Below are positions 8,260 to 29,637 of a DNA stretch of 64,000 nucleotides, in pieces. Origin of the DNA: Mycolicibacterium arabiense (lineage in GTDB: Bacteria > Actinomycetota > Actinomycetes > Mycobacteriales > Mycobacteriaceae); the NCBI RefSeq assembly GCF_010731815.2, contig NZ_AP022593.1, positions 2,728,001 to 2,792,000 of the forward strand, given 5' to 3'. The notes under the pieces were generated by a model, which worked only from the letters and a program-made list of their open reading frames with translations, was not told the origin of the DNA and made no database searches. Numbering within the stretch: the stretch's first letter is position 1; each line of letters begins with the position of its first letter. Both the position numbers and the translations under genes were made by a program.

Positions 8260-8290
8260 CGCCGAGGCTCCCTCAACCTAAGGACTGAAC

Positions 8291-8782: not shown

Positions 8783-8786
8783 CGGT

Positions 8787-8812
8787 GTTTCTCGCCTTTT
8801 GCCGTCGGGTAG
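8787..8812 (+). promoter_or_regulatory. SigF-type promoter of the hemerythrin gene
   Basis: GTTT (8787-8790), a 16-base spacer and GGGTAG (8807-8812) lie just after the DUF4383 gene. The start would be near 8818, giving a leader of about 65 bases to GTG 8883. One base of the -10 differs from the consensus. Confidence 0.6.
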
Positions 8813-8882
8813 ACGAAATGGGACCGGCGCACAGCCCACGCGCCGTCAGCCCAATTCGATTCACTTGCGGAGGCAACTCACC

Positions 8883-10288: not shown

Positions 10289-10492
10289 ATGCCTGCCGGC
10301 AATGCGGCGTCGAAGGTCGTCGAGTACGCGATCCAGACTCCGCACAGCAAGACCGTCCTCATGACCACCGAGGACCGCGCCGAAGCCGAGCGCACGCTCG
10401 ACATGCTCGGCGAGGGCCAGCTGTTGATGCGGACCGTCACGTACGGCCCGTGGAAGCCCGCGATCGACGATGCGCACGACCTGAGCGCCTAG
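10289..10492 (+). CDS. small conserved hypothetical protein, 67 residues
   Basis: ATG 10289 follows AAGGGAGG at close spacing, so it is preferred over in-frame starts at 10217 and 10250, which lack ribosome-binding sites. The product is small and soluble (VVEYAIQTPHSKTVLMTTEDR and then an acidic end); no family is recognised. Its stop overlaps the stop of the convergent HNH gene by two bases. Confidence 0.6.
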   Translation: MPAGNAASKVVEYAIQTPHSKTVLMTTEDRAEAERTLDMLGEGQLLMRTVTYGPWKPAIDDAHDLSA

Positions 10493-12171: not shown

Positions 12172-12179
12172 ACTTTCGA
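12164..12179 (-). promoter_or_regulatory. LexA/SOS box overlapping the HNH gene start
   Basis: On the minus strand TCGAAA-GTAT-GTTCGA matches the mycobacterial SOS box TCGAAC-N4-GTTCGA at 11 of 12 positions. The start codon ATG (12171-12169) lies inside the box, so LexA binding would block initiation directly. In M. tuberculosis several 13E12-family genes are known LexA targets. Confidence 0.75.
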
Positions 12180-12311
12180 ATCTACTACCCGGGTACGACA
12201 AGTCTCCGCATCAAAAACTGGCGCTGACCAGGCTGTGAATGGAAACAGCACTGGGGATAAACCGTCTAGGCGGCGGTGTTTTCGTCGCACCCAGGGTGTA
12301 AAGGCCACCCC

Positions 12312-13610
12312 TCAGTACCCGCCCGGCCTGCCGTTCGCGACGTACTTCAGACCAGCCCGGTGGACGGCATCGGCGTCGGCGACATTGCGCGTATCCACCA
12401 CGACCGCGTCCGGCGCCTGCTCGGCCACTGCCGCCCAGTCGAGGCTGCCGAACTCCGGCCACTCGGTCAGCACCACGATCGCGTCCGTCGCCTTCATTGC
12501 TCGGTGTGGATCGTCGACCGCGGTCACCCCAGCCGACTGCAGGGCCGCCGGGTCGATCGCCGCCAACCGCGGGTCGAACGCATAGACGTTCGCCCCCAAC
12601 CCGGTCAGGTGTTCGCACACCGCCAACGCTGGTGAGTCGCGGGTATCGCTCGTATGCGCCTTGAACGCCACGCCCAGCGCCGTCACCCGCGCGCCGTCCA
12701 GCGGCCGGGACATGTTGCGTTCCAATGCCTCCGCGATGCGCGCGGCCTGCCCCTCGTTCGTGACACGGCACGCCTCCACCTCGGCCAGCTTCCCACCGTG
12801 CCTCCGCGCCACGTGCACCAGCGCCGCGGTGTCCTTCGGCAGACACGACCCACCCCACCCCGGTCCCGGCCGCAGGAACGCCGCTCCAATCCGTGGGTCG
12901 GCGCCCATGCTGCGCGTCACGTCGTCGACATCGGCACCCACCCGCGCGCACAGATCCGCAACGGAATTCGCGTACGACAGCTTCACCGCCAGGAATGCGT
13001 TGCTCGCGTACTTGGCCAGCTCCGCGCTCTCCGGGGTCATCGCCAGCGTCGGCGCATCCGATCCGAGCACCTTCCGCAGCAGCTCGACGTGATCGTCGTC
13101 CGTTGCCCCGACCACCACCCGGTCGGGATGACGGAAGTCGTGCACGGCGCGCCCCTCGCGCAGGAACTCCGGCGTCGACACGGCACCAATGCCGCGGTCC
13201 CGCAACCGTTGTCCCACCGACGTCGTGGTTCCCACCGGAACCGTCGACTTGAGCGCCACGACCGCGCCAGGGCGCAACACCTCACCGAGTTCGGCTACCA
13301 CGGCATCGACCGCCCGCAGATCGGCCGACCCGTCGGCGTCGCTGGGCGTCGGCACGCACACGAACACCACGTCGCGATCCGACACCTCGGCGTAGTCGGC
13401 GGTGAAGCGCAACGTGCCCGCCGCGAGACCCGCACGCAACGCATCCTCGAGATCCGGCTCCCCGATGGCCGAGAAGCCCTGCGTCAGTCGATCGAGCTTG
13501 CGCAGATCGACGTCCACGCACACCGTGTCGAATCCCCGCTCGGCCAGGCACACGGCGGTGGTCAGGCCCACGTACCCGGCGCCCACCACTCCTATTCCGA
13601 CGTCGGTCAC
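12312..13610 (-). CDS. ugd: UDP-glucose 6-dehydrogenase (UDP-Glc/GDP-Man DH family)
   Basis: This 432-residue enzyme has an N-terminal NAD-binding motif GAGYVG (10-15), the central helix ELAKYASNAF (197-206) and the catalytic cysteine C256 in GWGGSCLPKD. It oxidises UDP-glucose to UDP-glucuronate in two NAD-dependent steps; the family also contains GDP-mannose dehydrogenases, which I cannot fully exclude. GTG 13610 follows AAGGAG and overlaps the preceding stop (GTGA). It is the last gene of the glycan operon; with the UXS-like SDR at 21407 it could supply UDP-xylose. Confidence 0.88.
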   Translation of the reverse strand: MTDVGIGVVGAGYVGLTTAVCLAERGFDTVCVDVDLRKLDRLTQGFSAIGEPDLEDALRAGLAAGTLRFTADYAEVSDRDVVFVCVPTPSDADGSADLRAVDAVVAELGEVLRPGAVVALKSTVPVGTTTSVGQRLRDRGIGAVSTPEFLREGRAVHDFRHPDRVVVGATDDDHVELLRKVLGSDAPTLAMTPESAELAKYASNAFLAVKLSYANSVADLCARVGADVDDVTRSMGADPRIGAAFLRPGPGWGGSCLPKDTAALVHVARRHGGKLAEVEACRVTNEGQAARIAEALERNMSRPLDGARVTALGVAFKAHTSDTRDSPALAVCEHLTGLGANVYAFDPRLAAIDPAALQSAGVTAVDDPHRAMKATDAIVVLTEWPEFGSLDWAAVAEQAPDAVVVDTRNVADADAVHRAGLKYVANGRPGGY

Positions 13611-14539
13611 GAGGACTCCTTCAGAGCGGTGCGGACGGTGTCGAGGACCTCCGCCGTGGACAGGGACAACAACCCGGGATCGGGATGATCGGCATGCGGG
13701 TCGCCGACGTCGCCGGCCCACAGCACCCGATGACGCTCGAGTCGCCGCGGCCCCCACCGGCTCGGCGGGGTCGGGCCGAACAGCAGCACCGACTCCGTGC
13801 CGGTGGCGGTGGCCACGTGCGCTACCCCGGTGTCGCCACACACCAGCAGCCGCGCGTCGGCCACCAGCGTCACCAGATCCAGGAGATCCAGTTCCCCTGC
13901 CAAGACGGATGATCCGGGCAGACCGGCAGAGCCGGCCACCTGCTGGGCCAGCTCGCGTTCGGCCCGAGATCCGGTGACGACGACGTCGTACCCCTCGCCT
14001 GCCAGCTCGGCGGCAACCGCCGCGAAGCGGTCCGGCGGCCACCGGCGCGACGGCGCCGCCGCACCCGGGTGAATGACGACGGCATCGCGAAGCACCGACT
14101 TCCGCTGCGGCCGCGCGATGTCGAGATCATCAGCAGAGCAAGGCATTCCGGCCCACCGGAGCAGCTCGCACCACCGGTCGACCTCGTGCACGTCCTCCGA
14201 CCAGTCCGGCCCCGGTACCTCGGGGTGGTCCGGATGGCGGTGCGTGAGCATCGCCAGTGGTGCCACACCGAGCAGGTGCTCGATGCTCTGCGGCCCGGCG
14301 CCGTGCAGGTTGACCCCCAGCATCGGCGGCTCATCCAGCGGCCGAACGTCGCCGAGCCCCGCCGTGGGCACCACCTCGTCGACCGCGTCGGTCAGCAGCG
14401 CCAGATCGCGGTAGGCCGCAGGCGCCGCGAGCACGATCGCTGCGTCGGGAAAGTGCCTACGCAGGCCCCGTAGCGCGGGTACCGCCGTCAGCAGGTCGCC
14501 AAGCCCGAGCGCCCTCAGCACGTAGACCGTTAGGGCCAC
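13607..14539 (-). CDS. GT9 (heptosyltransferase-like) glycosyltransferase
   Basis: This 310-residue GT-B enzyme of family 9 has an N-terminal RALGLGDLLTAVPALRGL (the GDxLxxxP motif of WaaC/WaaF), HPGAAAPSRRWPPDRF near 190-205 and the nucleotide-binding CGDTGVAHVA near 248-257. GT9 enzymes use ADP-heptose in lipopolysaccharide cores. The same operon encodes ADP-heptose biosynthesis, so heptose transfer is a reasonable inference. GTG 14539 overlaps the upstream stop by 10 bases and its own stop overlaps ugd, indicating translational coupling. Confidence 0.85.
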   Translation of the reverse strand: MALTVYVLRALGLGDLLTAVPALRGLRRHFPDAAIVLAAPAAYRDLALLTDAVDEVVPTAGLGDVRPLDEPPMLGVNLHGAGPQSIEHLLGVAPLAMLTHRHPDHPEVPGPDWSEDVHEVDRWCELLRWAGMPCSADDLDIARPQRKSVLRDAVVIHPGAAAPSRRWPPDRFAAVAAELAGEGYDVVVTGSRAERELAQQVAGSAGLPGSSVLAGELDLLDLVTLVADARLLVCGDTGVAHVATATGTESVLLFGPTPPSRWGPRRLERHRVLWAGDVGDPHADHPDPGLLSLSTAEVLDTVRTALKESS

Positions 14540-15237
14540 GACGATTCCGTCGATGCGCAGACCACCAGCTCGCGCACCTCGCACCCCGCCGGCTGCGACA
14601 ACGCGAACACGACCGTCTCGGCCACGTCCCCCGGCTGGTTCAGCTTGGCGTCCGCAGGCGGCTTGTACTGCTCGGTGCGGCCGTCGAAGAACGGCGTGTG
14701 CATGCCGCCGGGAATCAGCAGCGTCACGCCCACCTCGCCCGCGAGTTCGGCGGCCAGCGCGCGCGTGAACCCGACGACGCCGAACTTGGAGGCGCAGTAT
14801 GCCGTTGCATCGCCGACGGCCTTGATGCCCAACGTCGACGCCACCGTGACGACGCGCCCGTGGCTGGCCTTCAGCATCGGCAGCGCCGCCCGGATCACGG
14901 CCGCGGTACCGAACAGATTGACCGCGACGACCTTCTCCCACTCCTTGGCGGGTACGTCGGCGAGGCTGCCGCACGAGTCGATGCCCGCAGCCGTGAACAC
15001 ACCCGTCAGTTCGCCACCAGCGCGCTCGACGAGCAGCGTCACCGCGGCGTCGACCGCATCGGTGTCGGCCAGATCGGCGGTCACGTAGTCGACGTCGGCA
15101 CTCGGCGGTTTCAAGTCGATGACCAGCGGCGTACCTCCATGGCGCAGCACGGCTTCCACCGTTGCCGCACCCAGACCGGACGAACCGCCGGTGACGAGGA
15201 CGTTGCCGAGTGCTCCGTGGGTGTTGGTGTCTGCCAT
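14530..15237 (-). CDS. classical short-chain dehydrogenase/reductase
   Basis: This 235-residue SDR has the cofactor motif TGGSSGLG (16-23), catalytic S134, Y147 and K151 in YCASK, and D41 after the second strand, which favours NAD(H). Its classical architecture differs from the sugar-nucleotide epimerases of the cluster, so it is unlikely to be the missing heptose epimerase HldD. A role in modifying a lipid or sugar carbonyl is possible; the substrate is unknown. ATG 15237 lies one base after the hldE stop. Confidence 0.85.
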   Translation of the reverse strand: MADTNTHGALGNVLVTGGSSGLGAATVEAVLRHGGTPLVIDLKPPSADVDYVTADLADTDAVDAAVTLLVERAGGELTGVFTAAGIDSCGSLADVPAKEWEKVVAVNLFGTAAVIRAALPMLKASHGRVVTVASTLGIKAVGDATAYCASKFGVVGFTRALAAELAGEVGVTLLIPGGMHTPFFDGRTEQYKPPADAKLNQPGDVAETVVFALSQPAGCEVRELVVCASTESSWP

Positions 15238-15238
15238 G

Positions 15239-16636
15239 TCATGCGTCCTTTCGGGTGAGGTCCGACCGTGCGGCGGCGATCAGACGTGAGGATGAGTAGC
15301 CGGCGACCGTCGGCACGATGACCACGTCGCCACCGTGGCGCCGGACCACCTCGGTCTCGGGCAGGTCGTCGACGGCGTAGTCGCCGCCCTTGACCCAGAC
15401 GTCGGGCCGGACCAGTTCGAGCATCGCCTCGGGCGTCGACTCGTCGAAGGTGACGACGGCGTCGACACAGCCGAGTGCGGACAGCACGCGGGCCCGGTCG
15501 GGTGCCGACACGATGGGACGGTCGTCACCCTTGATGCGCCGCACCGAGTCGTCGGAGTTGATCAGGACGATCAGCGCGTCGCCCAGTTCGCGGGCCTGCC
15601 GCAGCAGCCGCACGTGACCGGTGTGCAGCAGATCGAAGCACCCGCCGGTGGCGACCACCGTTCGGCCCTGTGCCCGCAGCCGGTCCACGATGTCCGTGAC
15701 GTCGGCACCCGACCATTCATCGGAAACAGTTGCAGCAGGCTCGAATCGGGCGACCGCGGCCGGTGCCGACACCGCGCTGGCGCCGCCGGCCGCGACGAAC
15801 CTGGCGGCCGCCTCGACCGCCGCTCGCACTGCCTCCGCCGGTGTGGCACCGTCACCGAGCGCGACCGAGGCCGCGACGGCGAACCTGTCCCCCGCTCCGC
15901 AGACGTCCGCGCTGGCCGCGGCAACGAGCTTGGGTACCCCAACGTGGCTGCGCTCGCCGCCGCGAACGAACAGTCGCGCGCCACGAGCGCCGACCGTCAC
16001 GCACAGCGCAGCCGTGCCCCACCGTTCGCGCAGCGCGTCGAATGGCTCGTCGCCCGAGAAGTGGCGTGCCTCGGCCTCGTTGGGCGTGACGAGCGCACAG
16101 CCGGGGATCGGCTTCTGACCGCGGGGATGCGGGTCCCATACGACGGGCACCGTCGCCGTGGCCGCGGTCAGCGCATCGCGCAGCGCGGGCAGGGCCGTCA
16201 ATCCGGCGCCGTAGTCGGCGACGCAGATGGCCCGCGCGCCGGCAATGGCCTCGGTCACCTCCCGGGCCAGGGGCCCCGGGGTCACCGAGGCGTCACCGTG
16301 ATCGATGCGCAGCACCGACTGACCGCGTGCCCGCACCCTGGTCTTGGTGACCGTCGACCCCGACATCGGGAGTCCGACGACGCGAACCCCGCCGTCGTGC
16401 AACAACTCTCGCAACCGGCGGCCGTCCGGATCCGACGCGATGCCGGCGATCAGGACCACGTCCTCCTCGTGTCGGGCGGCCAGCAGCGCGGCCAGCCCCG
16501 CGCCGCCGGGCCGGTGCCACACGCGTTCGGTGTCGACGACGGGAACGGGTGCCTCGGGACTGAGTCTGGTGGCGGAGCCTTCGAGGTCGACGTCGAGCAT
16601 CGCGTCGCCGACGATGACCAGCGGCCCGGCGCTCAT
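15239..16636 (-). CDS. hldE: HldE-type heptose-7-P kinase / heptose-1-P nucleotidyltransferase
   Basis: This 465-residue bifunctional protein combines an N-terminal PfkB/ribokinase-fold kinase (1-295) with PGGAG (43-47) and the catalytic GAGD at 247-250, and a C-terminal nucleotidyltransferase (about 325-465) with GCFDLLHTGH, whose HTGH at 338-341 binds ATP. Length and order match E. coli HldE (RfaE). It makes D-glycero-beta-D-manno-heptose 1,7-bisphosphate and, after dephosphorylation, ADP-heptose. The substrate loop PGGAG deviates from the usual PGGAAN. ATG 16636 overlaps the gmhA stop (ATGA). Confidence 0.9.
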   Translation of the reverse strand: MSAGPLVIVGDAMLDVDLEGSATRLSPEAPVPVVDTERVWHRPGGAGLAALLAARHEEDVVLIAGIASDPDGRRLRELLHDGGVRVVGLPMSGSTVTKTRVRARGQSVLRIDHGDASVTPGPLAREVTEAIAGARAICVADYGAGLTALPALRDALTAATATVPVVWDPHPRGQKPIPGCALVTPNEAEARHFSGDEPFDALRERWGTAALCVTVGARGARLFVRGGERSHVGVPKLVAAASADVCGAGDRFAVAASVALGDGATPAEAVRAAVEAAARFVAAGGASAVSAPAAVARFEPAATVSDEWSGADVTDIVDRLRAQGRTVVATGGCFDLLHTGHVRLLRQARELGDALIVLINSDDSVRRIKGDDRPIVSAPDRARVLSALGCVDAVVTFDESTPEAMLELVRPDVWVKGGDYAVDDLPETEVVRRHGGDVVIVPTVAGYSSSRLIAAARSDLTRKDA

Positions 16637-17202
16637 CCGAGTCCCCGTCCGAGGACGGCCGCGTCGACGGCCGTGCACAGCGCGTGCACGAGCAGCAGGT
16701 GCACCTCCTGCACCGTCGCGCCCCTGTCGGCCTCCACGCAGATCGCCTCGTGGGAGATGCCCGCCAGCGGGTTGGGCGCCCTGCCCGTCAGCGCCCACGT
16801 CGCCATGCCGACGTCGTGGGCGGCCTTCACCGCGGCGAGCACGTTGGGGCTCGCGCCGCTGGTCGACAACGTCACCAGCACGTCGCCCGGTCTGCCGTGG
16901 GCCCGCACGCCCCTGGCGAAGATCTCCTCCACGCCGTAGTCGTTGGCGATGGCGGTCAGCGCAGAGGTGTCCGCGTGCAGCGAAATCGCCGCGAGCGGGA
17001 TGCGTTCGTCGCAGAACCGGCCCACCAGTTCCGCGGTGAGATGCTGTGCCTCTGCGGCACTCCCGCCGTTGCCGCACGCCAGCAGCCGACCGCCCGACAG
17101 CAGCACGTCGGCGAGCCGTTGTCCCCACGACGTGACGCGGTCGATGTCGACCTTCGTGCGGTCGACGGCCTCGATGAGCGCGTCGAAGTTGGTCGCGATC
17201 AT
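16633..17202 (-). CDS. gmhA: sedoheptulose-7-phosphate isomerase
   Basis: This 189-residue SIS-domain protein has CGNGGSAAEAQH (43-54) and STSGASPN (113-120). The zinc ligands of GmhA are conserved with the exact E. coli spacing: H54, E58, Q165 and H173 (E. coli H61, E65, Q172, H180). It converts sedoheptulose 7-phosphate to D-glycero-D-manno-heptose 7-phosphate, the entry step of heptose biosynthesis. ATG 17202 follows GGGGAGGAG and overlaps the upstream GT9 stop (ATGA). Confidence 0.92.
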   Translation of the reverse strand: MIATNFDALIEAVDRTKVDIDRVTSWGQRLADVLLSGGRLLACGNGGSAAEAQHLTAELVGRFCDERIPLAAISLHADTSALTAIANDYGVEEIFARGVRAHGRPGDVLVTLSTSGASPNVLAAVKAAHDVGMATWALTGRAPNPLAGISHEAICVEADRGATVQEVHLLLVHALCTAVDAAVLGRGLG

Positions 17203-18218
17203 GGTGCTCCTCCCCACTGGTGAACGGCCGCCACCAGCCTTGAATCAGTGATGCCGTCCAGGCACGGATGTCCTGGGACGGGGCACGTTCGGGCGCGGGT
17301 CGCCCGGCATGCCGAGTTTTGGTCGCCGAGCAACGTGACGGCGTCGCCGTACGGGCTCCACTGCGATGCGGGGACGACGGGGGCGAACAACGACACCACC
17401 GGCGTCCCGACGGCGGCGGCGAGGTGCGCCGGTCCGGTGTTGGGCGCCACGACGACTCGCGCGGCGGCGTACACCGCGGCGAGGCCGGGCAGGTCCACCC
17501 GACCGCCGAGATCGACCGCGGCGTCGCCGGCGACCAGGCCGGTCAGGTCGCGTTCCTCGCCCGATCCGGTGACGACGACGCGGTAGCCCGCCTCGCACAG
17601 CGCCCGCACCATCCCCGCACTCCGGCCAGGCGTGGGCATCCGGGCGGGTACCGCGGCGCCGGGGTGGAACGCGATGAAGCGGTCCGTGCCGATCACCTCG
17701 GCCACGTCGCGGGGCACGCCCGGGAGGTCGCGGATCCGCAGCCCGCCGTCGTCGCCGCCCGGCAGGTCGCACCCCCCGGCGCGGGCGAGCGACAGCGCTC
17801 GCTCCACCTCGGGTATGCCGTCGGGAACGTGGTGGCGCAGGTCGAGCAGCGTGCCCGGGTAGTCCTCGCAGATGGCGCCGGTCCAAGCCACCCCGGCCAT
17901 CCGGCACAGCAGGGCCAGCGGAAGCGGCGACTGATGGAACGAGGTGAAGACGAACGCCCGGTCCGGCGCGATGTCGCGCAGTTGCTTCACCAGCGCCTCG
18001 ACGTGGCCGGCCGTCAACTCCGGAGAGTCGAAGTCGACCCACGGGGCCTGCCATTCGACGATCTCGTCGACCCGTGGCAGCAGTTCCGCCGCGGCACGGC
18101 CCCGCGGGCCGACCAGCATCACCACCCGGTCGTGGTGTGTTGCGACTGCGCGCACCGCAGGCCCCGTGATCAGCACGTCACCCGCGCTGTCCAGGCGTGC
18201 CACCAGTGCGGTACTCAT
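17199..18218 (-). CDS. GT9 (heptosyltransferase-like) glycosyltransferase
   Basis: This 339-residue second GT9 paralogue of the operon has LVARLDSAGDVLITGPAVRAV (GDxLxxxPxxR motif, about 6-26), a FHPGAA strand near 200 and VAPNTGPAHLAAAVGTPVVSLF near 270-290, the ADP-sugar binding site in WaaC/WaaF-like enzymes. A likely role is transfer of heptose to an acceptor on the cytoplasmic face. ATG 18218 follows GAGG. It lies 28 bases after the upstream gene and overlaps gmhA. Confidence 0.87.
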   Translation of the reverse strand: MSTALVARLDSAGDVLITGPAVRAVATHHDRVVMLVGPRGRAAAELLPRVDEIVEWQAPWVDFDSPELTAGHVEALVKQLRDIAPDRAFVFTSFHQSPLPLALLCRMAGVAWTGAICEDYPGTLLDLRHHVPDGIPEVERALSLARAGGCDLPGGDDGGLRIRDLPGVPRDVAEVIGTDRFIAFHPGAAVPARMPTPGRSAGMVRALCEAGYRVVVTGSGEERDLTGLVAGDAAVDLGGRVDLPGLAAVYAAARVVVAPNTGPAHLAAAVGTPVVSLFAPVVPASQWSPYGDAVTLLGDQNSACRATRARTCPVPGHPCLDGITDSRLVAAVHQWGGAP

Positions 18219-18246
18219 CGGTGTCCTCGGCTCTTCGCGCAAGCGC

Positions 18247-19752
18247 TCATCGCGACTCCCGCAACACCATCGACACCGCATCCGTCAGCGTCGCCGCCAC
18301 GCGGGCGCGGGACCTGGCGTGCTGGATCTCCTCGACCCGGGTGCGGTCGGTCGGCACCAGCACCGCACGCGCGTTGGCGGCCAGTGCCGCGTTGACGTCA
18401 CCGCCGGTGTCGCCGATCATCACGCACCGCTCGGGTGGCACGCCGAGCGTCTCGGCTGCGGCGAGGACCATCCCCGGCCGCGGCTTGCGGCACGCGCACT
18501 GGTGGTGATCGTCGTGCACGCAGACCTGCCAGGTGTCGAACGGCCCGAGCACGGCGTCGACCTCGGCGTTGACGGCCAGCAGCTGCTCGGGCGTGATCAG
18601 TCCGCGCGCCACACCGGACTGGTTCGACACGATCCCGAGCAGGATGCCCCGCTCGCGCAGCTTGTCCAGCGCGCGCACCGCACCCGGCAGCGGCCGAACC
18701 CCATTGGGGTCGTTGAGGAAAGGGCCGTCCTCGATGATGGTGTCGTCGCGGTCGAGCAGCACGGCGAGCACCGGTTCGGGTACCGCGGAGCGGTGCGTCC
18801 ACTCCCCGACCAGCCTGTGCCACACCGCAACCGGCGGGATGAGCACCGACGACCACGCGAGCCGGACCGCTTCGCCGGCGGTGGGCGGTCCGTCGAGGAA
18901 GCGCCGCACCGCGAACTGCGTGGTGAGCGCGGCCCACGCGGTCGCGGCGACGCCCGCCGTCGTGCGCCTGCCCGTGACTGCGGCCAACGCACCGGTGGCC
19001 AGGGCCGCGGTCGTCGCGACGTGCGCGGGCATCCTGCCGGGACCCTCACCGATGCGGGTTCGCCAGTCGCCGCCGAACTTCCGCCGCATGAGTGCGTTGT
19101 CGCGGTTGCCGATCTGTGCGCGGACGCTGCTCATCGCCGTCGCAGGCGCGACCGGATGGGTCACCCGCCGGTCACCGCGCACGATGCGGTGTCCCGCCGA
19201 CGTGATCCGCAGAGCGATGTCGGAGTCCTCCCGGTAGGCACGCGGGAAACGCTCATCGAACCCGCCGACCGCCACCAGCACGTCGCGCCGGTAGGCCATG
19301 TCCGCGGTGATCCACTGGGCGGTGGCCAGACGCTGCGTGCGCCGCTCGTCGTCAGTCGCCCGCCGGCCCTCGGCGGCAGGCACCAGCAAGCCACCCTGGG
19401 AACCCGCGGCACGGACGCTCTCGGCGCGGTTCAGGTCGTCGGCGAGGCACGCCAGCCAGTCGGCGCCGGGCAGCACGTCGTCGTCGAGGAACGCGATCCA
19501 CCTCGTGGCCGCTGCGCGCCACCCGACGTTGCGTGCGGCAGCCGGACCCCGGCCACCACTGCGCAAGACGTTGACCGCCAACCGATCCGACCGGACCTCG
19601 AGTTCTGAAGAGCTGTCACGGCGGTCGTCGACGACGATCACCTCGGCGGGCCGCGGATGCACGCCGCCTGCCGACTCGTCGAGCGCGGCGATCAGGCGGT
19701 GCAGCGACTCCCGGCCGATGGTCGGGATGACGACGGTGCAGTCCACGATCAC
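18247..19752 (-). CDS. fusion: GT2 glycosyltransferase + GmhB-type heptose-bisphosphate phosphatase
   Basis: This 501-residue two-domain protein has a GT-A fold GT2 domain at 1-300, with VVDDR (40-44), DDD at 90-92 and FDERFPRAYREDSDIALR near 165-182. The HAD-IIIA phosphatase at about 328-490 has DRDDT (334-338; the usual form is DRDGT), SNQSGVARG (376-384) and the zinc loop C411xH413-C419xC421 that defines GmhB. The phosphatase would remove the 1,7-bisphosphate's 7-phosphate between the two HldE steps. GTG 19752 overlaps the upstream stop. Confidence 0.9.
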   Translation of the reverse strand: MIVDCTVVIPTIGRESLHRLIAALDESAGGVHPRPAEVIVVDDRRDSSSELEVRSDRLAVNVLRSGGRGPAAARNVGWRAAATRWIAFLDDDVLPGADWLACLADDLNRAESVRAAGSQGGLLVPAAEGRRATDDERRTQRLATAQWITADMAYRRDVLVAVGGFDERFPRAYREDSDIALRITSAGHRIVRGDRRVTHPVAPATAMSSVRAQIGNRDNALMRRKFGGDWRTRIGEGPGRMPAHVATTAALATGALAAVTGRRTTAGVAATAWAALTTQFAVRRFLDGPPTAGEAVRLAWSSVLIPPVAVWHRLVGEWTHRSAVPEPVLAVLLDRDDTIIEDGPFLNDPNGVRPLPGAVRALDKLRERGILLGIVSNQSGVARGLITPEQLLAVNAEVDAVLGPFDTWQVCVHDDHHQCACRKPRPGMVLAAAETLGVPPERCVMIGDTGGDVNAALAANARAVLVPTDRTRVEEIQHARSRARVAATLTDAVSMVLRESR

Positions 19753-21410
19753 CGGGCGCGCCTCACCAGGAACGGCCCGATCGCCAGCACGTCGATCGGC
19801 GAACTGCCGAAGCACTCCAGCGCGTCGCGCGGGCTGTCGACGATCGGCCTGCCCGCGGTGTTGAAGCTGGTGTTGACGACCACCGGGACACCCGTGCGCT
19901 CGGCGAAGCGCGAGATGACGCCGTGCAGCGGAGCCTGGGACGGTTCGACGGTCTGGATCCTGGCGGTGCCGTCGACGTGCGTCACCGCGGGGATGCGGTC
20001 ACGCCACTGCGGCAACACGTCGTGGACGAACAGCATGTACGGGCTGGGCAACGGACCACGGGAGAAGATCTCGGCCGCGCGGTCGGCGAGCACCATGGGG
20101 GCCACCGGCCGGAACTGCTCACGGCCCTTGACGATGTTGAGACGCTCGAGGTTGTCGACGTGCCGGGGGTCGGCGAGCAGCGACCGCGCGCCGAGGGCAC
20201 GCGGCCCGAATTCGGCACGGCCCTGGAACCATCCGATCAACTGGTCGTCGGCGAGGGCGTCGCCGACGGCGGCCGCGAAGTCCGCCGGGCGTTCATACGG
20301 CACCGCGGCCTCGTCCAGCGTGCGGGCGATCTGCTCGTCGGAGAACTCGCGGCCCAGCAGCGCCGAGGGCATCGGCGAGATCGGCTCGCCGAAGTCGGCG
20401 GCCAGTGACAGCGCCGCGCCCAGCGCGGTGCCCGAGTCACCGGCGGCAGGTTGCACCCACACCTCGTCGAAGCTGCCCTCGGCGTGAATCCGGGTGTTGG
20501 CAACGCAATTGAGCGCCACCCCGCCTGCCAGGCTGAGATACGGCGTGTCCACGCGCTCGCGCAGCCACGCCACCAGGCCTAGTAGCACCTCCTCGACGAC
20601 GAGCTGGACGCTGCATGCCAGGTCGGCGTGCACCGGGTCGGGCCTGGCGAAGGCCGACATCTCCTCCGGAGGCGTCGCCCGTCGCTTGGGGGCCAACGCC
20701 GACCAGTCGATGCGCTCGGTGCGGAAACCGCCGTCGTCGCAGACGTATACCCGCTCGCGCAGGTAGTCGGCGAACCGCGGGCTGCCATAGGAGCCCATCG
20801 CCATCACCTTGTACTCATCGCTGGAGCGCTTGAAGCCGAGGTGCTCGGTGAGGTCCTCGTAGAGCAGTCCGAGTGAGTGCGGCAGCGACTGCGACGCGAG
20901 CACGTCCAGCTTGTGCTCGCGGTACACGCCGGCCAGCATCGACGTCCGCTCACCGCGGCCATCGACGACGAGCACCGCCGAATCCGGGTGCGGCGACGCT
21001 AGCGCCGTCGACGCGGCGTGGGTGACGTGATGGCGCACGTGCCGGACGTTCGCAGGGTCGAGCCCTGGCAGCGCCGTAGCCAGGAAGCCGGATGCGCGTT
21101 GGGCGTACAGCGTGCGGAGGTACTCCCACTTGTTGTCGAGACCCTCGAGGTCGTCGGACTCACCCTCCATGATCGAGGGGTCATACGAGTAGCCGACCGC
21201 ATCGAGGTCGGCGGGCTCGAGGCCCGCCTCGGCCAGGCACCACTGTGCGGCACTGGTCGGGAGTTCCCACGTCGAGAACGGCACGGCCGTCTTGCCGTGC
21301 TTGCGGCGACTGAACCGCTCCTCCTCCGCTGCGGCGACGACGTTGCCGTCGACGACCAGAGCCGCGGCAGGATCGTGGAATACGGCGTTGATGCCCAATA
21401 TCTTCATCAT
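19749..21410 (-). CDS. NodU/CmcH-type O-carbamoyltransferase
   Basis: This protein of about 553 residues matches carbamoyltransferases of the NodU/TobZ family. The N-terminal Kae1-like domain has MKILGINAVFHDPAAALV and the metal-binding HHVTHAAS (H126, H130 counted from the second Met); it also has SLAGGVALNCVANTRI, QGRAEFGPRALG and VVNTSFN. The C-terminal YrdC-like region completes the fold. It uses carbamoyl phosphate and ATP to carbamoylate a hydroxyl, usually on a sugar. Two ATGs (21410, 21407) are possible; 21410 gives the ATGA overlap used throughout the operon. Confidence 0.92.
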   Translation of the reverse strand: MMKILGINAVFHDPAAALVVDGNVVAAAEEERFSRRKHGKTAVPFSTWELPTSAAQWCLAEAGLEPADLDAVGYSYDPSIMEGESDDLEGLDNKWEYLRTLYAQRASGFLATALPGLDPANVRHVRHHVTHAASTALASPHPDSAVLVVDGRGERTSMLAGVYREHKLDVLASQSLPHSLGLLYEDLTEHLGFKRSSDEYKVMAMGSYGSPRFADYLRERVYVCDDGGFRTERIDWSALAPKRRATPPEEMSAFARPDPVHADLACSVQLVVEEVLLGLVAWLRERVDTPYLSLAGGVALNCVANTRIHAEGSFDEVWVQPAAGDSGTALGAALSLAADFGEPISPMPSALLGREFSDEQIARTLDEAAVPYERPADFAAAVGDALADDQLIGWFQGRAEFGPRALGARSLLADPRHVDNLERLNIVKGREQFRPVAPMVLADRAAEIFSRGPLPSPYMLFVHDVLPQWRDRIPAVTHVDGTARIQTVEPSQAPLHGVISRFAERTGVPVVVNTSFNTAGRPIVDSPRDALECFGSSPIDVLAIGPFLVRRAR

Positions 21411-22444
21411 CGGCTCCCAGTGTCGACGGTGGTCCTGGCGTTGGCTGCGGGGGCGGCTTCCAGCGCGGAACGGAACCACTCAACCGTGGCGGCGAGGCCC
21501 CGGGCGTAGTCGATCGTCGAGGACCAACCGAGCCGGTCGCGGGCGACGGTCACGTCCGGGCAGCGCTGCCTGGGATCGTCGGTGGCGGCCGGGACGAACT
21601 CGATCGGCGAGTCGCTGCCTGCGAGGTCGCGGATCAGCTCCGCGATCCGCAGGACCGTCAGCTCCTCGGGGTTGCCGATGTTCACCGGACCGGGAAAGTC
21701 GCCGTGGGACAGCGCGATCAGCCCGTCGACCGTGTCGTCGACGTAGCACAGCGACCGGGTCTGCGATCCGTCGCCCGCGACGGTGATCGGCTCACCGAGG
21801 AGCGCCTGCCTGCAGAACGTCGGCACTGCCCGTCCGTCGTCGGCACGCATCCGTGGTCCGTAGGTATTGAAGATCCGGGCCACGCCAATCGAGACGCCGC
21901 GCTCGCGCCGGTAGGCGAAGGTCAGCGCCTCGGCGTACCGCTTGGCCTCGTCGTAGACGCTCCGCGGTCCGATGGGGTTGACGTTTCCCCAATACTGTTC
22001 GCGCTGCGGGTGTTCCAGCGGATCGCCGTAGACCTCACTGGTGGACGCCAGCACGAACCGCGCGCCGCACCGTTGTGCCACGTCGAGCGCCACGGTGGTG
22101 CCCTGGCTGCCGGTTCGCAGGGTGGCCGTCGGCATGCGCAGGTAGTCGACCGGCGATGCCGGGCTGGCGAGGTGAAACACCGTGTCGAACGGCGCGTTTC
22201 GCCACGGCGCCGGTAGGGGGTCGGCGATGTCGTGTTCGACGAAGTGGTAGCCGTCCCGGTGCGCGAGCCGGGTGTGGGCGTCCGGCGCGCTGGTGGACAG
22301 GTCGTCCACGCACACCACCTCGGCTGCGCCGAGTTCGAACAGGCGCTCGCAGAGCCTGCTGCCCAGGAAGCCGCTGCCGCCCGTCACCAGGACACGCGAC
22401 CCCCGAGTTTGACCCGGATCGCGGTGGGTAGCTGCTGCCGTCAT
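21407..22444 (-). CDS. extended SDR, UDP-glucuronate decarboxylase-like
   Basis: This 345-residue NAD-dependent epimerase/dehydratase-family enzyme has TGGSGFLG (21-28), the substrate-region FHLASPASPVDY (90-101), STSEVYGDP and the catalytic Y164xxxK168 in SVYDEAKRY. ARIFNTYGPRM and the SPASP pattern are those of UDP-xylose synthases (UXS). With ugd at the operon's other end, UDP-Glc to UDP-GlcA to UDP-Xyl is a coherent inference; a dTDP- or UDP-sugar epimerase is the alternative. GAGGTG lies six bases before ATG 22444, and this start overlaps that of the divergent GT2. Confidence 0.82.
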   Translation of the reverse strand: MTAAATHRDPGQTRGSRVLVTGGSGFLGSRLCERLFELGAAEVVCVDDLSTSAPDAHTRLAHRDGYHFVEHDIADPLPAPWRNAPFDTVFHLASPASPVDYLRMPTATLRTGSQGTTVALDVAQRCGARFVLASTSEVYGDPLEHPQREQYWGNVNPIGPRSVYDEAKRYAEALTFAYRRERGVSIGVARIFNTYGPRMRADDGRAVPTFCRQALLGEPITVAGDGSQTRSLCYVDDTVDGLIALSHGDFPGPVNIGNPEELTVLRIAELIRDLAGSDSPIEFVPAATDDPRQRCPDVTVARDRLGWSSTIDYARGLAATVEWFRSALEAAPAANARTTVDTGSR

Positions 22445-23312
22445 GTCACTCACCTCGTTCGTCATAGCCAGCCGTGACCGGTCCCCGGAGGTGGTCGCGG
22501 TCGTGGAACGGTTGTTGCGCGAGACCGACTGCCCGGTCATCGTCGTGGACAACGGATCCCGTGACGACTCGGTGCTCGCGCTGCACCGGGCGGGATCGAT
22601 CGGCCCGGGACGGCTGCGGGTCATCCCGCTCGCCGACAACCTCGGTGCCGTGGGCCGCAACGTCGGGGTGTCGGCGGCGACGACGCCGTTCGTCGCCTTC
22701 TGCGACGACGACTCCTGGTGGGAACCCGACGCGACCGCGCGCGCCGAGGAGCTGTTCGCCGAGTACCCCACGGTCGGTCTGCTCGCCGCGCGCACCGTGG
22801 TGCTGCCAAGCGGCCGGACAGACGCACTCTCCGAGATGCTGGCGGCGAGCCCGCTGGGCCACGATCCATCGCTGCCGGGCCCGTCGATCCTCGGATTCCT
22901 GGCGTGCTCGTCGATCGCCCGCAAGGAAGCCTTCGAAGCCGTCGGCGGATTCAGCAGCATCCTGCACTTCCGCGGCGAGGAGGGACTGCTGGCGATCGAC
23001 CTCGCCGCGGCGGGGTGGGACCTGTGCTTCTGCCCGGAGCTGGTGGCCTACCACCAGCCGTCGTCCGCCCGTCCGCCGAACGCGGTGCAGGACGCCCGTA
23101 GCCTCCGCAACGACGTGCTGACCACCTGGCTGCGCCGACCACCGCGCGAATGCGTCCGTGCGGCAACCCGGTTGGTCAGGGCCGCCACGCGCGACCAGGC
23201 GCACGCACGCGCGATGGCCGAGGCGTTGCGGCTGCTGCCGAGCGTCGCGCGAGGGAGACGCCGACTGCCCCGCGACGTCGAGGAATCGCTGGAGCTGCTC
23301 GCCCGGTCGTAA
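22443..23312 (+). CDS. GT2 family glycosyltransferase
   Basis: This 289-residue GT-A enzyme has SFVIASRDR at the start, VIVVDNGSRDDS near 33-44, VGRNVGVSAA near 68-77 and the metal-binding CDDDSWW near 84-90, with ECVRAATRLVRAA helices at the end. No membrane helices are present, so it is probably a cytosolic rhamnosyl/glycosyl transferase. It is the only plus-strand gene within the locus: its ATG overlaps the start codon of the divergent SDR, and it converges with the GT4 gene with an 11-base gap. No good ribosome-binding site is visible. Confidence 0.85.
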   Translation: MSLTSFVIASRDRSPEVVAVVERLLRETDCPVIVVDNGSRDDSVLALHRAGSIGPGRLRVIPLADNLGAVGRNVGVSAATTPFVAFCDDDSWWEPDATARAEELFAEYPTVGLLAARTVVLPSGRTDALSEMLAASPLGHDPSLPGPSILGFLACSSIARKEAFEAVGGFSSILHFRGEEGLLAIDLAAAGWDLCFCPELVAYHQPSSARPPNAVQDARSLRNDVLTTWLRRPPRECVRAATRLVRAATRDQAHARAMAEALRLLPSVARGRRRLPRDVEESLELLARS

Positions 23313-23323
23313 CGGATGCGGCC

Positions 23324-24532
23324 TCATCGAGCCGACCCCACTGCGTTGCGCGTGGTGACGTGGCGGTAGACACCGGCCATCGCGGCGGCCACCCGGTCCC
23401 ACGAATAGTGTTCGAGGACACGGCGTCTGCCCGCGCGGCCCAGCCGCTCCCGACGCCGCTCGTCCCACAGGATGGGGTTGATGGCGTCGGCCAGCGCCCG
23501 CGGGTTCTTCGGCTCCACCAACCGGCCCGTGACGTCGTCGAGCACCGTGTCGAGCATGCCGCCGACCGCCGATGCGACGACGGGCACCCCGCAGGCCATT
23601 GCCTCGAGCGGCACGATGCCGAACGGCTCGTACCACGGCGTGGCGGCGACCACGTCGGCCGACCGCAGCAGCATCGGCATCTCCTCCCTACCCACCGATC
23701 CGTAGAGGTGGACGCGGTCGGCGACGCCGAAGTGGGTCGCAAGCCGCTGCAGCCGAAGGGCTTCGGCGTCGGAGTCCAGCCGGGACTTGTCCGGGCCGCC
23801 GATGATGACGAGTTCGGAGTGCGGGATCATCCGCATCGCGCAGATCATCGTCTCGAACCCCTTGCGGGGCACCAGCCGTCCGACCGACACGATGCGGTGG
23901 GGCGCGCCGCCGCGGGTGGCGGCGGGTCCGCCCGGCGTGAACTCGTCTGTGTTCACACCGCAAGGCACCACCGACACCTTCGACCGTGACCGACCCATCC
24001 GCTCCAACTCGTCGACTTCGTCGGAGCACGTCGCCGCCACCCAGTCGACGTCGCGGGCGATCGTGGTCTCCAGCCGGATCCGGTCGTCGGGGCTGGTGTC
24101 GTCGGCGCCCTGGTGGATGCGCTTGACGATGCCGAGGGCGTGGAACGTCTGGACCGCGGGCAGGCCGTGCGCGGCAGCGGCAGGCATGGTGGCAAGACCC
24201 GACATCCAGAAGTGCGCGTGTGCGACGTCGGGCCGCCACCGGTGCCACTGGTCGGCGAGGAAGTCGCCGAATGCGGGCATGTACTGCGGCAGATCATCCT
24301 TCGGCAACTCGCGAGCGGGCCCGGCCGGCACGTGGATGACGGCGTACCCCTGCTCGGTGTCGACGTGCTCGGGCAGGTCCTCGCCGTCACGGCGGGTGTA
24401 CACCACGACCTCGTGTCCCCGGCGCGCCAAGGCGGCGGACAGTTCGGCGACGGCGACGTTCTGGCCTCCTGCGTCGACCCCGCCGAGATGAGCGAGCGGG
24501 CTGGCGTGTTCGGAGATCATCGCGACCCTCAT
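23324..24532 (-). CDS. GT4 family glycosyltransferase
   Basis: This 402-residue GT-B enzyme has the N-terminal GGVDAGGQNVAVAELSAALARRGHEV pattern of MshA/sucrose-phosphate-synthase-like GT4 proteins, SVGRLVPRKGFE near 228-239, and the nucleotide-sugar site with ATPWYEPFGIVPLEAMACGVPVVAS (E...E motif) near 300-325. The donor is unknown. ATG 24532 overlaps the stop of the preceding glycosyltransferase (ATGA), so both are on one transcript. It is similar to the GT4 at 27992. Confidence 0.88.
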   Translation of the reverse strand: MRVAMISEHASPLAHLGGVDAGGQNVAVAELSAALARRGHEVVVYTRRDGEDLPEHVDTEQGYAVIHVPAGPARELPKDDLPQYMPAFGDFLADQWHRWRPDVAHAHFWMSGLATMPAAAAHGLPAVQTFHALGIVKRIHQGADDTSPDDRIRLETTIARDVDWVAATCSDEVDELERMGRSRSKVSVVPCGVNTDEFTPGGPAATRGGAPHRIVSVGRLVPRKGFETMICAMRMIPHSELVIIGGPDKSRLDSDAEALRLQRLATHFGVADRVHLYGSVGREEMPMLLRSADVVAATPWYEPFGIVPLEAMACGVPVVASAVGGMLDTVLDDVTGRLVEPKNPRALADAINPILWDERRRERLGRAGRRRVLEHYSWDRVAAAMAGVYRHVTTRNAVGSAR

Positions 24533-25512
24533 GAACAGACCTCCTCGATCAGCCGGTCCCAGTCGTCGAGGAAACGACCGAGGCCGAAGTTGGTCAGCGC
24601 GAAGTCGCGCGCGGCCTTGCCTGCCAGCGCGGCGGCCTCGCGATCTGCCACGAAGTGGGCGGCCGCGCGGCCGAGTGCATCGGGGTCGGCGCTGACCACG
24701 CCGGCCTCCCGCGGTACCGCCAGCGGGGCCATCGTCGCGGCGACCGCGACGACGGGCATCCCGATCGTCATCGCCTCGAGCAGCGACAGTCCCAGCGACG
24801 TCCACCGTGCGGTGTGCACGTAGACCCGGCGTCGCGCCACCTCCCGCAGCAACCGCGCAGCCGGCACGTCACCGCGGCCCGTGACGCCCCCGACCCGATG
24901 CTCGTCGGCGTTGAGGTCGTCGCTGCCGATACCCCATACGTCGACGGGGACGTAGCGGCCGAGCGTGCCGAGCAGGTCGGTACCGACCGTGCGCCACCGG
25001 CGCAGCGGCTCGTTGATCATCGCTGCGGCGGAGCCGATCTCACCGCTGTAGAGGTGACCGCGGTCGGGGATGCCGTGGTCCACGACGCGTGTCGGCGCGC
25101 GGCCGTTGTCCCACATCAGTCGGTTGAAGTCGGTGACGTGGACGATAGGGATGTCCGATCGGTCACCGAGCGGATGTCTGCTGTCGACGGCATGCGGACG
25201 CGGTGCGTTGTGTTCGACGTACACGGCGGGGACGTCGATGCCGGGTCGGCGCCGGAGCCACCGTGCGGTCAGCTCCAACTCTTCTGGGCGTTGCAGCACC
25301 ACCAGGTCGACCGGTCGGTCGGCGAGGTCTTCGTACCCGACCTCCTCGGCAGCAGGCCAGACCCTGCCGCACAGCCCGCGGGCGCTGCCGTCGTCGGACC
25401 GCGGCACGAGATAGGAGTGCTCACCGGAGACGAACGCCTCCGTCCAACTGCCGTGCACGTGCCAGATGAGCACGTCGCGAGGTGCGTCCGGGTCGGGCAT
25501 GGCGCGCCACAT
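24529..25512 (-). CDS. GT4-like glycosyltransferase
   Basis: This 327-residue protein has a diverged GT-B fold. N-terminal DVLIWHVHGSWTEAFVSGEHSYLVPR and YVEHNAPRPHAVDSRHPL recall GT4 family members that carry a His-rich acceptor region; the C-terminal ARWTSLGLSLLEAMTIGMPVVAVAATMAPLAV matches the GT4 nucleotide-sugar site. The donor and acceptor are unknown. ATG 25512 is the first start after a hairpin at 25585-25613, so it probably opens the first transcription unit of the glycan locus. Confidence 0.78.
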   Translation of the reverse strand: MWRAMPDPDAPRDVLIWHVHGSWTEAFVSGEHSYLVPRSDDGSARGLCGRVWPAAEEVGYEDLADRPVDLVVLQRPEELELTARWLRRRPGIDVPAVYVEHNAPRPHAVDSRHPLGDRSDIPIVHVTDFNRLMWDNGRAPTRVVDHGIPDRGHLYSGEIGSAAAMINEPLRRWRTVGTDLLGTLGRYVPVDVWGIGSDDLNADEHRVGGVTGRGDVPAARLLREVARRRVYVHTARWTSLGLSLLEAMTIGMPVVAVAATMAPLAVPREAGVVSADPDALGRAAAHFVADREAAALAGKAARDFALTNFGLGRFLDDWDRLIEEVCS

Positions 25513-25584
25513 ACCCTGGGCCGAACCCTCGAAACTTCTAGGATTGAAGATCTTTCAGAGGGGTGCCGGAGCGCAGCATCTCAC

Positions 25585-25626: not shown

Positions 25627-26808
25627 TTAGGGCACGAGGATGATCTTGACCGCGCCGTCCTCCTTCTTCTGGAAGATGTCGTAGGCGTGCGGCGCCTCTT
25701 CGATGGGCAGCACGTGCGTAGCGAAGGTGTCGACGCCCAACGGGTCGTCGTCGGTGAGCAGGGGCATGATGTCGTCTACCCAGCGCTTCACGTTCGCCTG
25801 GCCCATGCGCAGCTGAATCTGCTTGTCGAACATCGTCAGCATCGGCATCGGGTCGGCGGCGCCGCCGTAGACGCCGGACAGCGAGATCGTGCCGCCTCGG
25901 CGGACGATGTCGATCGCCGAATACAGCGCGTCGAGACGGTCGACGCCAACGTTCTCCATCATCGGCTTGGCGATCGCGTCGGGCAGCAGCCCGGAAATCT
26001 GCTGTGCGGTCTTCGCCACCGGTGAACCGTGGGCTTCCATGCCGACCGCGTCGATCACCGAGTCGGTTCCCCGACCCGAGGTCAGCTGCCGGATCACGTC
26101 GCCGACGGTCATGTCGATGGCGTTCAGGTCGATGGTGTCGATGCCGAAGGCGTTTGCACGCGCCAGCCGTTCGGGCACCATGTCGACACCGATCACGCGG
26201 TATCCACGGTGGTGGGCGATGCGTGCCGCCATGTCTCCGATCGGGCCGAGGCCGAGCACGGTCACCGAACCGCCGTCGGGCACGTCGGCGTACTCGACCC
26301 CCTGCCAGGCGGTGGGGAGGACGTCCGACAGGTACACGAAGCGCGCGTCCGGTGGTCCGTCGGGCACCTTGATGTGGGTGAACTGGGCCTGTGGCACCCG
26401 GAGGTATTGGGCCTGCCCACCGGGCACCGCGCCGTAGAGCTGGGAGTAGCCGAACAGGGCTGCGCCCTTGCCCTGCTCGCGGACCTGAGTCGTCTCGCAC
26501 TGCGTGTACAGCGCGAGGTCGCACATGTAGCAGGACCCGCAGGAGATCTGGAACGGGATGACGACGCGGTCGCCCACGCTGAGGTTCGTGACCGCCGAGC
26601 CGACTTCGCGCACCACGCCCATCGGCTCGTGGCCGAGGATGTCGCCCTCGGTCATGAACGCGCCGAGCACCTCGTAGAGGTGCAGGTCGGAACCGCAGAT
26701 GTTGGTGGACGTCACCTCGATGATGGCGTCGGTGGGCTCTTGGATCTCTGGGTCGGGCACGGTGTCGACGCGTACGTCGCGCTTCCCGTGCCACGTCACG
26801 GCCTTCAT
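25627..26808 (-). CDS. zinc-dependent alcohol/formaldehyde dehydrogenase
   Basis: This 393-residue medium-chain dehydrogenase has catalytic zinc ligands C38 (NICGSD) and H60 (GHE), structural zinc cysteines C90, C93, C96 and C104, and the cofactor site VLGLGPIGDMAARIA near 184-198. The length and inserted loops resemble glutathione-independent formaldehyde dehydrogenases and related enzymes rather than simple ethanol dehydrogenases. The substrate is unproven. The divergent side is 54 bases from the AraC gene end, with both genes on the minus strand. Confidence 0.85.
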   Translation of the reverse strand: MKAVTWHGKRDVRVDTVPDPEIQEPTDAIIEVTSTNICGSDLHLYEVLGAFMTEGDILGHEPMGVVREVGSAVTNLSVGDRVVIPFQISCGSCYMCDLALYTQCETTQVREQGKGAALFGYSQLYGAVPGGQAQYLRVPQAQFTHIKVPDGPPDARFVYLSDVLPTAWQGVEYADVPDGGSVTVLGLGPIGDMAARIAHHRGYRVIGVDMVPERLARANAFGIDTIDLNAIDMTVGDVIRQLTSGRGTDSVIDAVGMEAHGSPVAKTAQQISGLLPDAIAKPMMENVGVDRLDALYSAIDIVRRGGTISLSGVYGGAADPMPMLTMFDKQIQLRMGQANVKRWVDDIMPLLTDDDPLGVDTFATHVLPIEEAPHAYDIFQKKEDGAVKIILVP

Positions 26809-26862
26809 TCTCGGGTGCTACCCGCAGGGCATCGACCGAAACGCCCCGGCCCGTGAAACGGT

Positions 26863-29203: not shown

Positions 29204-29323
29204 GACACTCCGATCGCTCGACCGCGCCCGACCCAGCCGCGGGGAGTCGAGATAACCGGGTCGCCCCAGGGCGAAACCGGGCCGTGCGTTGTCGGGACAG
29301 CGCGTTTCGCCGAGTGGATGGCG

Positions 29324-29557: not shown

Positions 29558-29596
29558 GGGATTCCTCCTTCGTCGATCGACCGATGTCGGCTTCGG

Positions 29597-29621: not shown

Positions 29622-29637
29622 GCCCGTTGGCGATCTT

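Follow-up and report, generated by a model that had tools for sequence, protein, structure and literature searches.

The closest described relative of the locus examined here, a twelve-gene heptose glycan set at positions 12312-25512 of a 64,000-nucleotide stretch (hereafter the window) of the 6.45 Mb genome of Mycolicibacterium arabiense, is the cwg operon of Streptomyces, reportedly recognised by Hong in 2002 as an envelope-stress target. The relevant sections of PMC5839063 assign SCO6179-6190 to this operon and name SCO6186 as a phosphoheptose isomerase, SCO6187 as a bifunctional synthase/transferase and SCO6182 as a 'dehydratase', while those of PMC6767563 describe 12 genes, partly sigma-E dependent and induced by vancomycin, whose predicted product is a cell wall glycan. 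From the gene content, its conservation, the catalytic motifs, the homology with cwg and the promoter sites observed in the window and its relatives, we think it probable that the locus represents cwg in mycobacteria, and that it uses ADP-heptose with UDP-xylose or UDP-glucuronate to build a carbamoylated oligosaccharide, expressed at least partly from promoters of the SigF/SigB type and most likely destined to be a stress-induced envelope glycan. The correspondence with cwg and the SigF-type promoters are new; the locus itself is not unique to this genome.

Other systems are more distant. With the lipopolysaccharide (LPS) pathway of Gram-negative bacteria (GmhA-HldE-GmhB-HldD) the window has the first three enzymes and GT9-type transferases in common, but no protein of its genome exceeds the cut-off for the HldD 6-epimerase (19 matches, cut-off 274.6), there are additional genes for UDP-xylose and carbamoylation, and the organism, as an actinobacterium, has no LPS. 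Hygromycin-type antibiotic clusters also use ADP-heptose in Streptomyces, and the septacidin clusters named in PMC11461863 do so in an actinobacterium; the likeness is one of description rather than gene comparison, and the window, in which no antibiotic scaffold gene was recognised, differs in being rich in glycosyltransferases and conserved over many genera. The GDP-heptose genes of M. tuberculosis (Rv0112-Rv0115 type) likewise begin at sedoheptulose 7-phosphate with GmhA, according to the passage concerned in PMC7705670, but the window employs the kinase/adenylyltransferase fusion HldE in place of a guanylyl route. Its genome encodes a single SIS_2 protein, the GmhA of the operon, and a GDP-heptose route was rejected for want of a second protein of this type.

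The comparison with cwg was made through a Streptomyces-like locus (L119) and the printed gene names, rather than the DNA of S. coelicolor. L119 is one of three stretches from a single genus, which we guess to be Streptomyces; L119 and L120 hold much of the cluster, and L121 has matches only for GmhA and HldE. Twelve genes stand in a row in L119, in the order UXS (UDP-xylose synthase), carbamoyltransferase, GT2, HAD, GT9, GT4b, GT4a, GmhA, HldE, GT9, GT2 and GT2, so that GmhA is eighth and HldE ninth, the places held in cwg by SCO6186 and SCO6187 (PMC5839063). The published cwg sigma-E promoter (PMC6767563, Table 1) recurs in L119 at position 1678 with 2 mismatches in 29; elsewhere in L119 no place has fewer than 10 mismatches, and no other locus comes closer than 8. 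The gene behind it could start at any of several codons; measured to one of these, the GTG at 1855, the distance is 148 bp, and the published figure is 147 bp. Because of this promoter match we take L119 to be a cwg operon and the window locus to be its mycobacterial counterpart, an identification that the sequence evidence brings near to proof. The two share a UXS-type short-chain dehydrogenase/reductase (SDR), the carbamoyltransferase, a GT2, the HAD phosphatase, two GT9, two GT4, GmhA, HldE and a further GT2. Unlike L119, the window has an additional SDR and ugd, one of its GT2 genes divergent, its GT4 genes placed upstream, SigF-type promoter sites, and a fusion of GT2 with the phosphatase, which in L119 are separate genes in different frames with a stop between them. 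The statement in the earlier note on this DNA that ADP-heptose is classically an LPS precursor leaves out the homologous operon of Streptomyces.

Nine overlapping or abutting genes on the minus strand of the window form a coupled operon (12312-22444), which reads, from 22444 downwards, UXS-type SDR, carbamoyltransferase, GT2-GmhB fusion, GT9a, GmhA, HldE, SDR, GT9b and ugd. Junctions are overlaps of 4 or 10 nt or a spacing of 1 nt, apart from one larger gap of 28 nt before GT9a. Upstream lies a second coupled minus-strand pair, GT4b-GT4a (25512-23324), and between the two runs GT2p on the plus strand, whose start (22443) abuts the likely start of UXS (22444); gene starts were chosen inside the longest open reading frames. 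The genes that the earlier note had listed (GmhA, HldE, two GT9, carbamoyltransferase, SDR, ugd and a UXS-like SDR) are borne out by Pfam and NCBIfam profiles (Table 1). Its picture of one coupled operon flanked by GT4 and GT2 enzymes holds for 12312-22444, the flanking glycosyltransferases being separate transcription units, and the GmhB-type phosphatase it described is present, not as a stand-alone protein but as the C-terminal half of the GT2 fusion.

The mycobacterial SigF consensus is given as GTTT-N14-19-GGGTA in the part of PMC4694148 that deals with it, which also has a GT2 gene of M. smegmatis, MSMEG_1097, as SigF-dependent. Scanning with a spacer of N14-18, and with the reversed pattern as control, we found 8 exact sites in the window where 0.18 are expected (100 shuffles, none with more than one), and 87 in the whole genome against 16 for the reversed pattern. 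The scan was extended to 80 named loci, which are the best 80 of 507 relatives and are biased to close kin; here forward sites number 192 and reversed sites 4, none of the latter upstream of any gene. Per-gene counts omit loci in which the match starts after residue 60 or has less than 80 bp upstream, hence their differing denominators, and the taxonomic groups were set by hand. In mycobacterial loci a SigF-type site precedes GT2p (21/22), GT4b (18/23), UXS (9/23) and the carbamoyltransferase (2/24). Among the Pseudonocardiaceae the carbamoyltransferase (22/22), UXS (19/21) and the GT2-GmhB gene (7/15) are preceded by a site; in Nocardia the carbamoyltransferase is (7/7), and UXS and GT4b are not (0/7 each). 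No group has sites before GT4a, GT9a, GmhA, HldE, SDR, GT9b or ugd in any of the 80 loci. The position of the site moves between genes in different families, and seven mycobacterial loci have back-to-back sites between GT2p and UXS; since the loci are related, the counts do not represent independent events. In every locus but L119 the cwg sigma-E promoter is at least 8 mismatches away, the scan having been for that promoter and not for a general sigma-E consensus; what mycobacteria, Nocardia and Pseudonocardiaceae have instead are the SigF-type sites just listed. The cluster seems, on this sequence pattern, to be tied to a general-stress sigma factor. The nearest SigF relative in the M. arabiense genome (88% identity) is encoded about 0.6 Mb away. 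The flank retrieved with the cluster includes a SigF-type sigma gene in 11 of the 80 loci (L035, L037, L041, L043, L047, L056, L057, L059, L061, L086, L093); in seven of these, all mycobacterial, the SigF is at least 79% identical, with an anti-sigma gene beside it.

The locus is widespread. Within the genus, HldE relatives occur in 75 of 297 genomes (70 of 275 of good quality), and the GT2-GmhB protein in 67 of the 297, all of them among the 75; across the class, HldE relatives occur in 89 of 394 genomes and 43 of 137 genera. A search for the same gene order, which had been proposed as a check, shows that most of the order recurs: GmhA directly precedes HldE in all 80 named loci, a regularity that chance does not explain. 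The 26 mycobacterial loci among these all have GmhA, HldE, SDR, GT9a, GT9b and the fusion, and the other six genes are present in 21 to 24 of them, several of the misses falling on short contigs. Named carriers include M. persicum, M. scrofulaceum, M. asiaticum, M. senegalense and M. yunnanensis, of which the first three are of clinical origin. The GT2-GmhB fusion is not special to mycobacteria; at the threshold used, a match spans both halves in 49 of the 80 loci, and there are two separate matches in 11, a partial one in 10 and none in 10. GT2p is in the opposite orientation in many loci and absent from those of Nocardia, and in several Amycolatopsis loci GT2-GmhB and GT9a are shifted behind ugd or beyond the fetched stretch. 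The survey of the genus registers a stop codon in many HldE matches, as split genes would show; among 112 tblastn matches in the loci examined 6 have one, each at the natural C-terminus, and on these loci split HldE genes were rejected. In the HldE tree, Mycobacterium forms one clade that includes the window (support 100/100) and Nocardia is nested within the Pseudonocardiaceae, a topology that fits vertical descent with losses in mycobacteria and makes horizontal transfer possible for Nocardia. Some mycobacteria carry a second type of HldE (34-38% identity) in a separate heptose locus (L124, L125, L127, L128), with GT9 relatives in three of the four and HAD relatives in three of the four; in genomes G060 and G264 it coexists with a cwg-type copy. 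Titles and abstract beginnings in the open-licence literature yielded no publication on this locus in mycobacteria among the matches listed, and those for 'cwg operon' with 'mycobacter' concern Streptomyces only. A salt-stress study of Frankia, which reports induction of one heptosyltransferase gene, was set aside, as the portion consulted shows no link to the cluster.

In the scheme that we propose, whose enzyme activities, sugars, acceptor, cellular location and actual SigF dependence are all predicted, sedoheptulose 7-phosphate would be converted to ADP-glycero-beta-manno-heptose by GmhA, the kinase part of HldE, the GmhB domain and, again from HldE, the adenylyltransferase, and the adjoining SDR would perhaps alter the product. 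Ugd would supply UDP-glucuronate and UXS would turn it into UDP-xylose, both in the cytosol like ADP-heptose. The MshA/PimB-like GT4a might start the glycan; six glycosyltransferases, a pair each of GT9, GT2 and GT4 type, would extend an acceptor to an oligosaccharide containing heptose and pentose or uronate, which the carbamoyltransferase would decorate. Under stress, SigF or a paralogue would raise the glycosyltransferases and, in many species, the whole operon, from promoters that appear to be of SigF/SigB type, at least in part, in mycobacteria, Nocardia and Pseudonocardiaceae, and of the envelope-stress sigma-E type in Streptomyces. It is the association with promoters of stress sigma factors that makes a stress-induced envelope glycan the most likely product.

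The UDP-sugar and transferase genes are consistent with this. Among solved structures the UXS protein matches UDP-glucuronate decarboxylase 1 at 324.5 bits and the next other enzyme at 126.7, so that Ugd and UXS should together yield UDP-xylose. GT9a and GT9b are the sole PF01075 matches in the genome, and their nearest solved relatives are GT9 enzymes, including WaaF and WaaC, which supports the family and not the acceptor; both lie below the curated LPS equivalog models (WaaC/WaaF/WaaQ), at 80.3 bits for GT9b and 49.6 for GT9a against a cut-off of 170.2. Two things count against a wall polymer. We know of no glycan product ever shown for cwg, and the recurring neighbours (the most widespread families, assessed mostly by eye, two of them through Pfam) include no recognised flippase, polymerase or exporter, a lack that fits poorly with such a product. 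The second point would suit a soluble cytosolic stress metabolite instead, a carbamoylated heptose oligosaccharide or glycoside akin to a compatible solute or to mycothiol, and so would the absence of any strongly hydrophobic segment from the 12 cluster proteins (highest 19-residue mean 1.83), the proximity of GT4a to MshA, an enzyme acting on inositol phosphate, and the control of trehalose synthase and glycogen-related genes by SigF in M. smegmatis, as stated in the cited part of PMC4694148. We nevertheless regard a soluble product as rather unlikely, given that the Streptomyces counterpart is a vancomycin-induced target of the sigma-E envelope stress response (in the account of PMC6767563 cited above), that six glycosyltransferases suggest a larger glycan, and that a polysaccharide pyruvyl transferase-like gene is added near the cluster in 21 of the 80 loci, mostly of Pseudonocardiaceae (the one tested, L068:3326-4264, belongs to PF04230).

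That the glycan is built from ADP-heptose is the best reading of the sugar genes, and ADP-heptose the likely donor, as the earlier note also proposed. The adenylyltransferase part of HldE exceeds its curated model TIGR02199 (Table 1), and the GmhA, kinase and GmhB models, whatever their scores, are the best matches of their kind for the window proteins. The residues H54, E58, Q165 and H173 that had been put forward as zinc ligands of GmhA are placed exactly so in the 189-residue frame and align with solved GmhA chains. In alignments that have between 46 and 81 rows for each gene and contain the window sequence, the GmhB half conserves its DRD, NQSG, CxH...CxC and GD motifs (HAD and zinc), and HldE its GAGD, HxGH and KGGDY motifs, which are catalytic signatures. 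The choice of nucleotide points the same way: the commentary on Tang et al. 2024 (PMC11461863) ties CDP- and UDP-heptose synthesis to an Arg at position 5 of (F/L)XXGXSTT, with the caveat that this Arg is not strictly needed, and the window motif is TVAGYSSS, with Tyr at this STTR5 position; of the 81 rows, 77 were displayed, and 4 of these have Arg there. With that caveat, Tyr in place of Arg makes ADP the default. Several scores pull the other way. The HldE kinase reaches 139.2 bits against a cut-off of 345 (TIGR02198), the whole-HldE model 300 against 521, GmhA 166 against 209.45 (TIGR00441) and 197.5 against 276 (PRK13936), and the GmhB part 121.1 against 178 (PRK08942), and substrates may therefore differ. 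GmhA, HldE and GmhB might accordingly have a different phosphate as substrate, derived from sedoheptulose or a hexose, or the highly conserved SDR fixed behind HldE might convert ADP-heptose before transfer; such a different donor is improbable, we think, when all four step families and two GT9 enzymes occur together with their signature residues kept, the adenylyltransferase is over its cut-off, and the Streptomyces-like form does without the SDR.

The same SDR bears on the stereochemistry of the heptose. A D,D-heptose had been expected for lack of HldD, and the lack itself stands; the inference is unsafe, since a classical SDR lies directly behind HldE in 78 of the 80 loci and may modify the heptose. 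Its Asn107-Ser134-Tyr147-Lys151 tetrad and Asp41 are invariant in 26 sequences, Asp41 suggesting NAD as the cofactor, and its AlphaFold model (predicted local distance difference test score, pLDDT, 89.9) has classical dehydrogenases as its nearest folds. As a candidate HldD the SDR was set aside, because the model resembles ordinary classical dehydrogenases and a fold does not tell the substrate; the UXS gene was rejected for the same role, its protein being of UXS type.

The promoter evidence also has its weak side. Ahead of the window's nine-gene operon there is no exact SigF site, and the pattern comes no closer than 2 mismatches, at two weak places; fewer than half of the mycobacterial UXS genes have one; in the Pseudonocardiaceae sites stand before GT4b in 1 of 17 loci and before GT2p in 0 of 21; the exact pattern is nearly absent from the remaining 20 loci, mostly Streptosporangiales (1/15 for GT4b); and two further SigF-like proteins in the genome (60% and 54%) could read the same promoters. 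A looser -10 element (any base followed by GGTA), chosen post hoc, recovers a palindromic variant ending in CGGTA before the carbamoyltransferase in 13 of 16 loci (reversed 0/16) and before GT9a in 1 of 19. This variant, often with a palindrome like AGAAGCGCTTCT, is found in L075, L077, L081, L089, L091, L094, L098, L106-L109, L111 and L112. Transcripts that begin at the GT4b promoter may read through GT2p into the window operon, a distance of 880 nt, or the operon may have a different promoter. That SigF-type sites serve only the neighbouring stress genes and the flanking GT2 and GT4, with the heptose operon driven otherwise, would account for UXS lacking a site in the window, as it does in 14 of 23 mycobacterial loci, and is very unlikely in view of the sites before UXS in the other mycobacterial loci, before UXS and the carbamoyltransferase in Pseudonocardiaceae, and before the carbamoyltransferase in Nocardia.

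The comparison with cwg offers a concrete chemical hypothesis for cwg-type glycans (heptose, xylose or glucuronate, and carbamate) at a widespread locus of largely conserved order, linked to general stress in mycobacteria that include M. persicum, M. scrofulaceum and M. asiaticum, and both the glycan and its ADP-heptose precursor become directly testable. A wider proposal, which we offer tentatively and hold to be somewhat doubtful as a whole, is that an ancestral actinomycete locus has been rewired, to sigma-E in Streptomyces and to the SigF/SigB type in mycobacteria, Nocardia and Pseudonocardiaceae, and that about one-fifth of mycobacterial species make a carbamoylated heptose/xylose envelope glycan under stress or in stationary phase. 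ADP-heptose, as its precursor, might then let an acid-fast bacterium signal through ALPK1.

Table 1. Genes and SigF-type promoter sites of the window heptose glycan locus; scores are in bits, and functions are those predicted by profile and structure matches.
Feature	Position	Strand	Supporting match or remark
ugd: UDP-glucose 6-dehydrogenase, 432 aa, GTG start	12312..13610	-	TIGR03026 398.9, cut-off 189.8; start overlaps GT9b stop by 4 nt
GT9b: heptosyltransferase-like, 310 aa, GTG start	13607..14539	-	PF01075 92.9, cut-off 22; nearest solved 1psw heptosyltransferase II, E 2.6e-16
Classical SDR, 235 aa	14530..15237	-	PF00106; alignment of 26 sequences; AlphaFold model pLDDT 89.9
HldE: heptose-7-P kinase / heptose-1-P adenylyltransferase, 465 aa	15239..16636	-	PfkB + CTP_transf_like; TIGR02199 188.5, cut-off 181.5
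GmhA: sedoheptulose-7-phosphate isomerase type, 189 aa	16633..17202	-	PF13580 92.9; solved GmhA 5i01, E 1.7e-46
GT9a: heptosyltransferase-like, 339 aa	17199..18218	-	PF01075 73.7, cut-off 22; 3tov/1psw, E ~5e-7
Fusion of GT2 (N) and GmhB-type HAD phosphatase (C), 501 aa, GTG start	18247..19752	-	PF00535 + HAD families; PRK08942 121.1
O-carbamoyltransferase, TobZ/GdmN/NodU family, 553 aa	19749..21410	-	PF16861 217.8, PF02543 178.1; 12 solved relatives, best E 4.7e-91
UXS-type SDR: UDP-glucuronate decarboxylase / UDP-xylose synthase, start uncertain	21407..22444	-	UDP-glucuronate decarboxylase 1 best solved match, 324.5
GT2p: divergent glycosyltransferase 2, 289 aa	22443..23312	+	PF00535 61.4; third-codon-position GC 0.88
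GT4a: MshA/PimB-like glycosyltransferase, 402 aa	23324..24532	-	PF00534 135.6; TIGR03449 248.7, below cut-off 462.5
GT4b: divergent GT4, 323 or 327 aa (ATG 25500 or 25512)	24529..25512	-	PF00534 36.2; alignment
SigF-type promoter of GT2p, GTTT-N15-GGGTA, 12 nt before ATG	22407..22430	+	exact pattern; 21/22 mycobacterial loci
SigF-type promoter of GT4b-GT4a, 11 nt before ATG 25500	25512..25535	-	exact pattern; 18/23 mycobacterial loci

Beyond the cluster, further SigF-type sites in the window (at 7274-9422, 26819-26842 and 34041-34064) precede phoU, a DUF4383 gene, a hemerythrin-type gene, a zinc-dependent dehydrogenase (25627-26808) and an SDR, and a minus-strand site near 8231 stands before no obvious gene; because SigF-type sites precede these additional neighbours, the neighbourhood looks like a general-stress island. 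A DUF222 gene (10489-12201) lies directly downstream of ugd, and a relative of it follows the cluster in L047. On the plus strand at 29289-33302 are genes for a CheB-type methylesterase and a CheR-PAS protein, and relatives of CheB flank the cluster in several mycobacterial loci. Repeated neighbours of one family are hidden in the merged neighbour listing from which these flanking genes were read.

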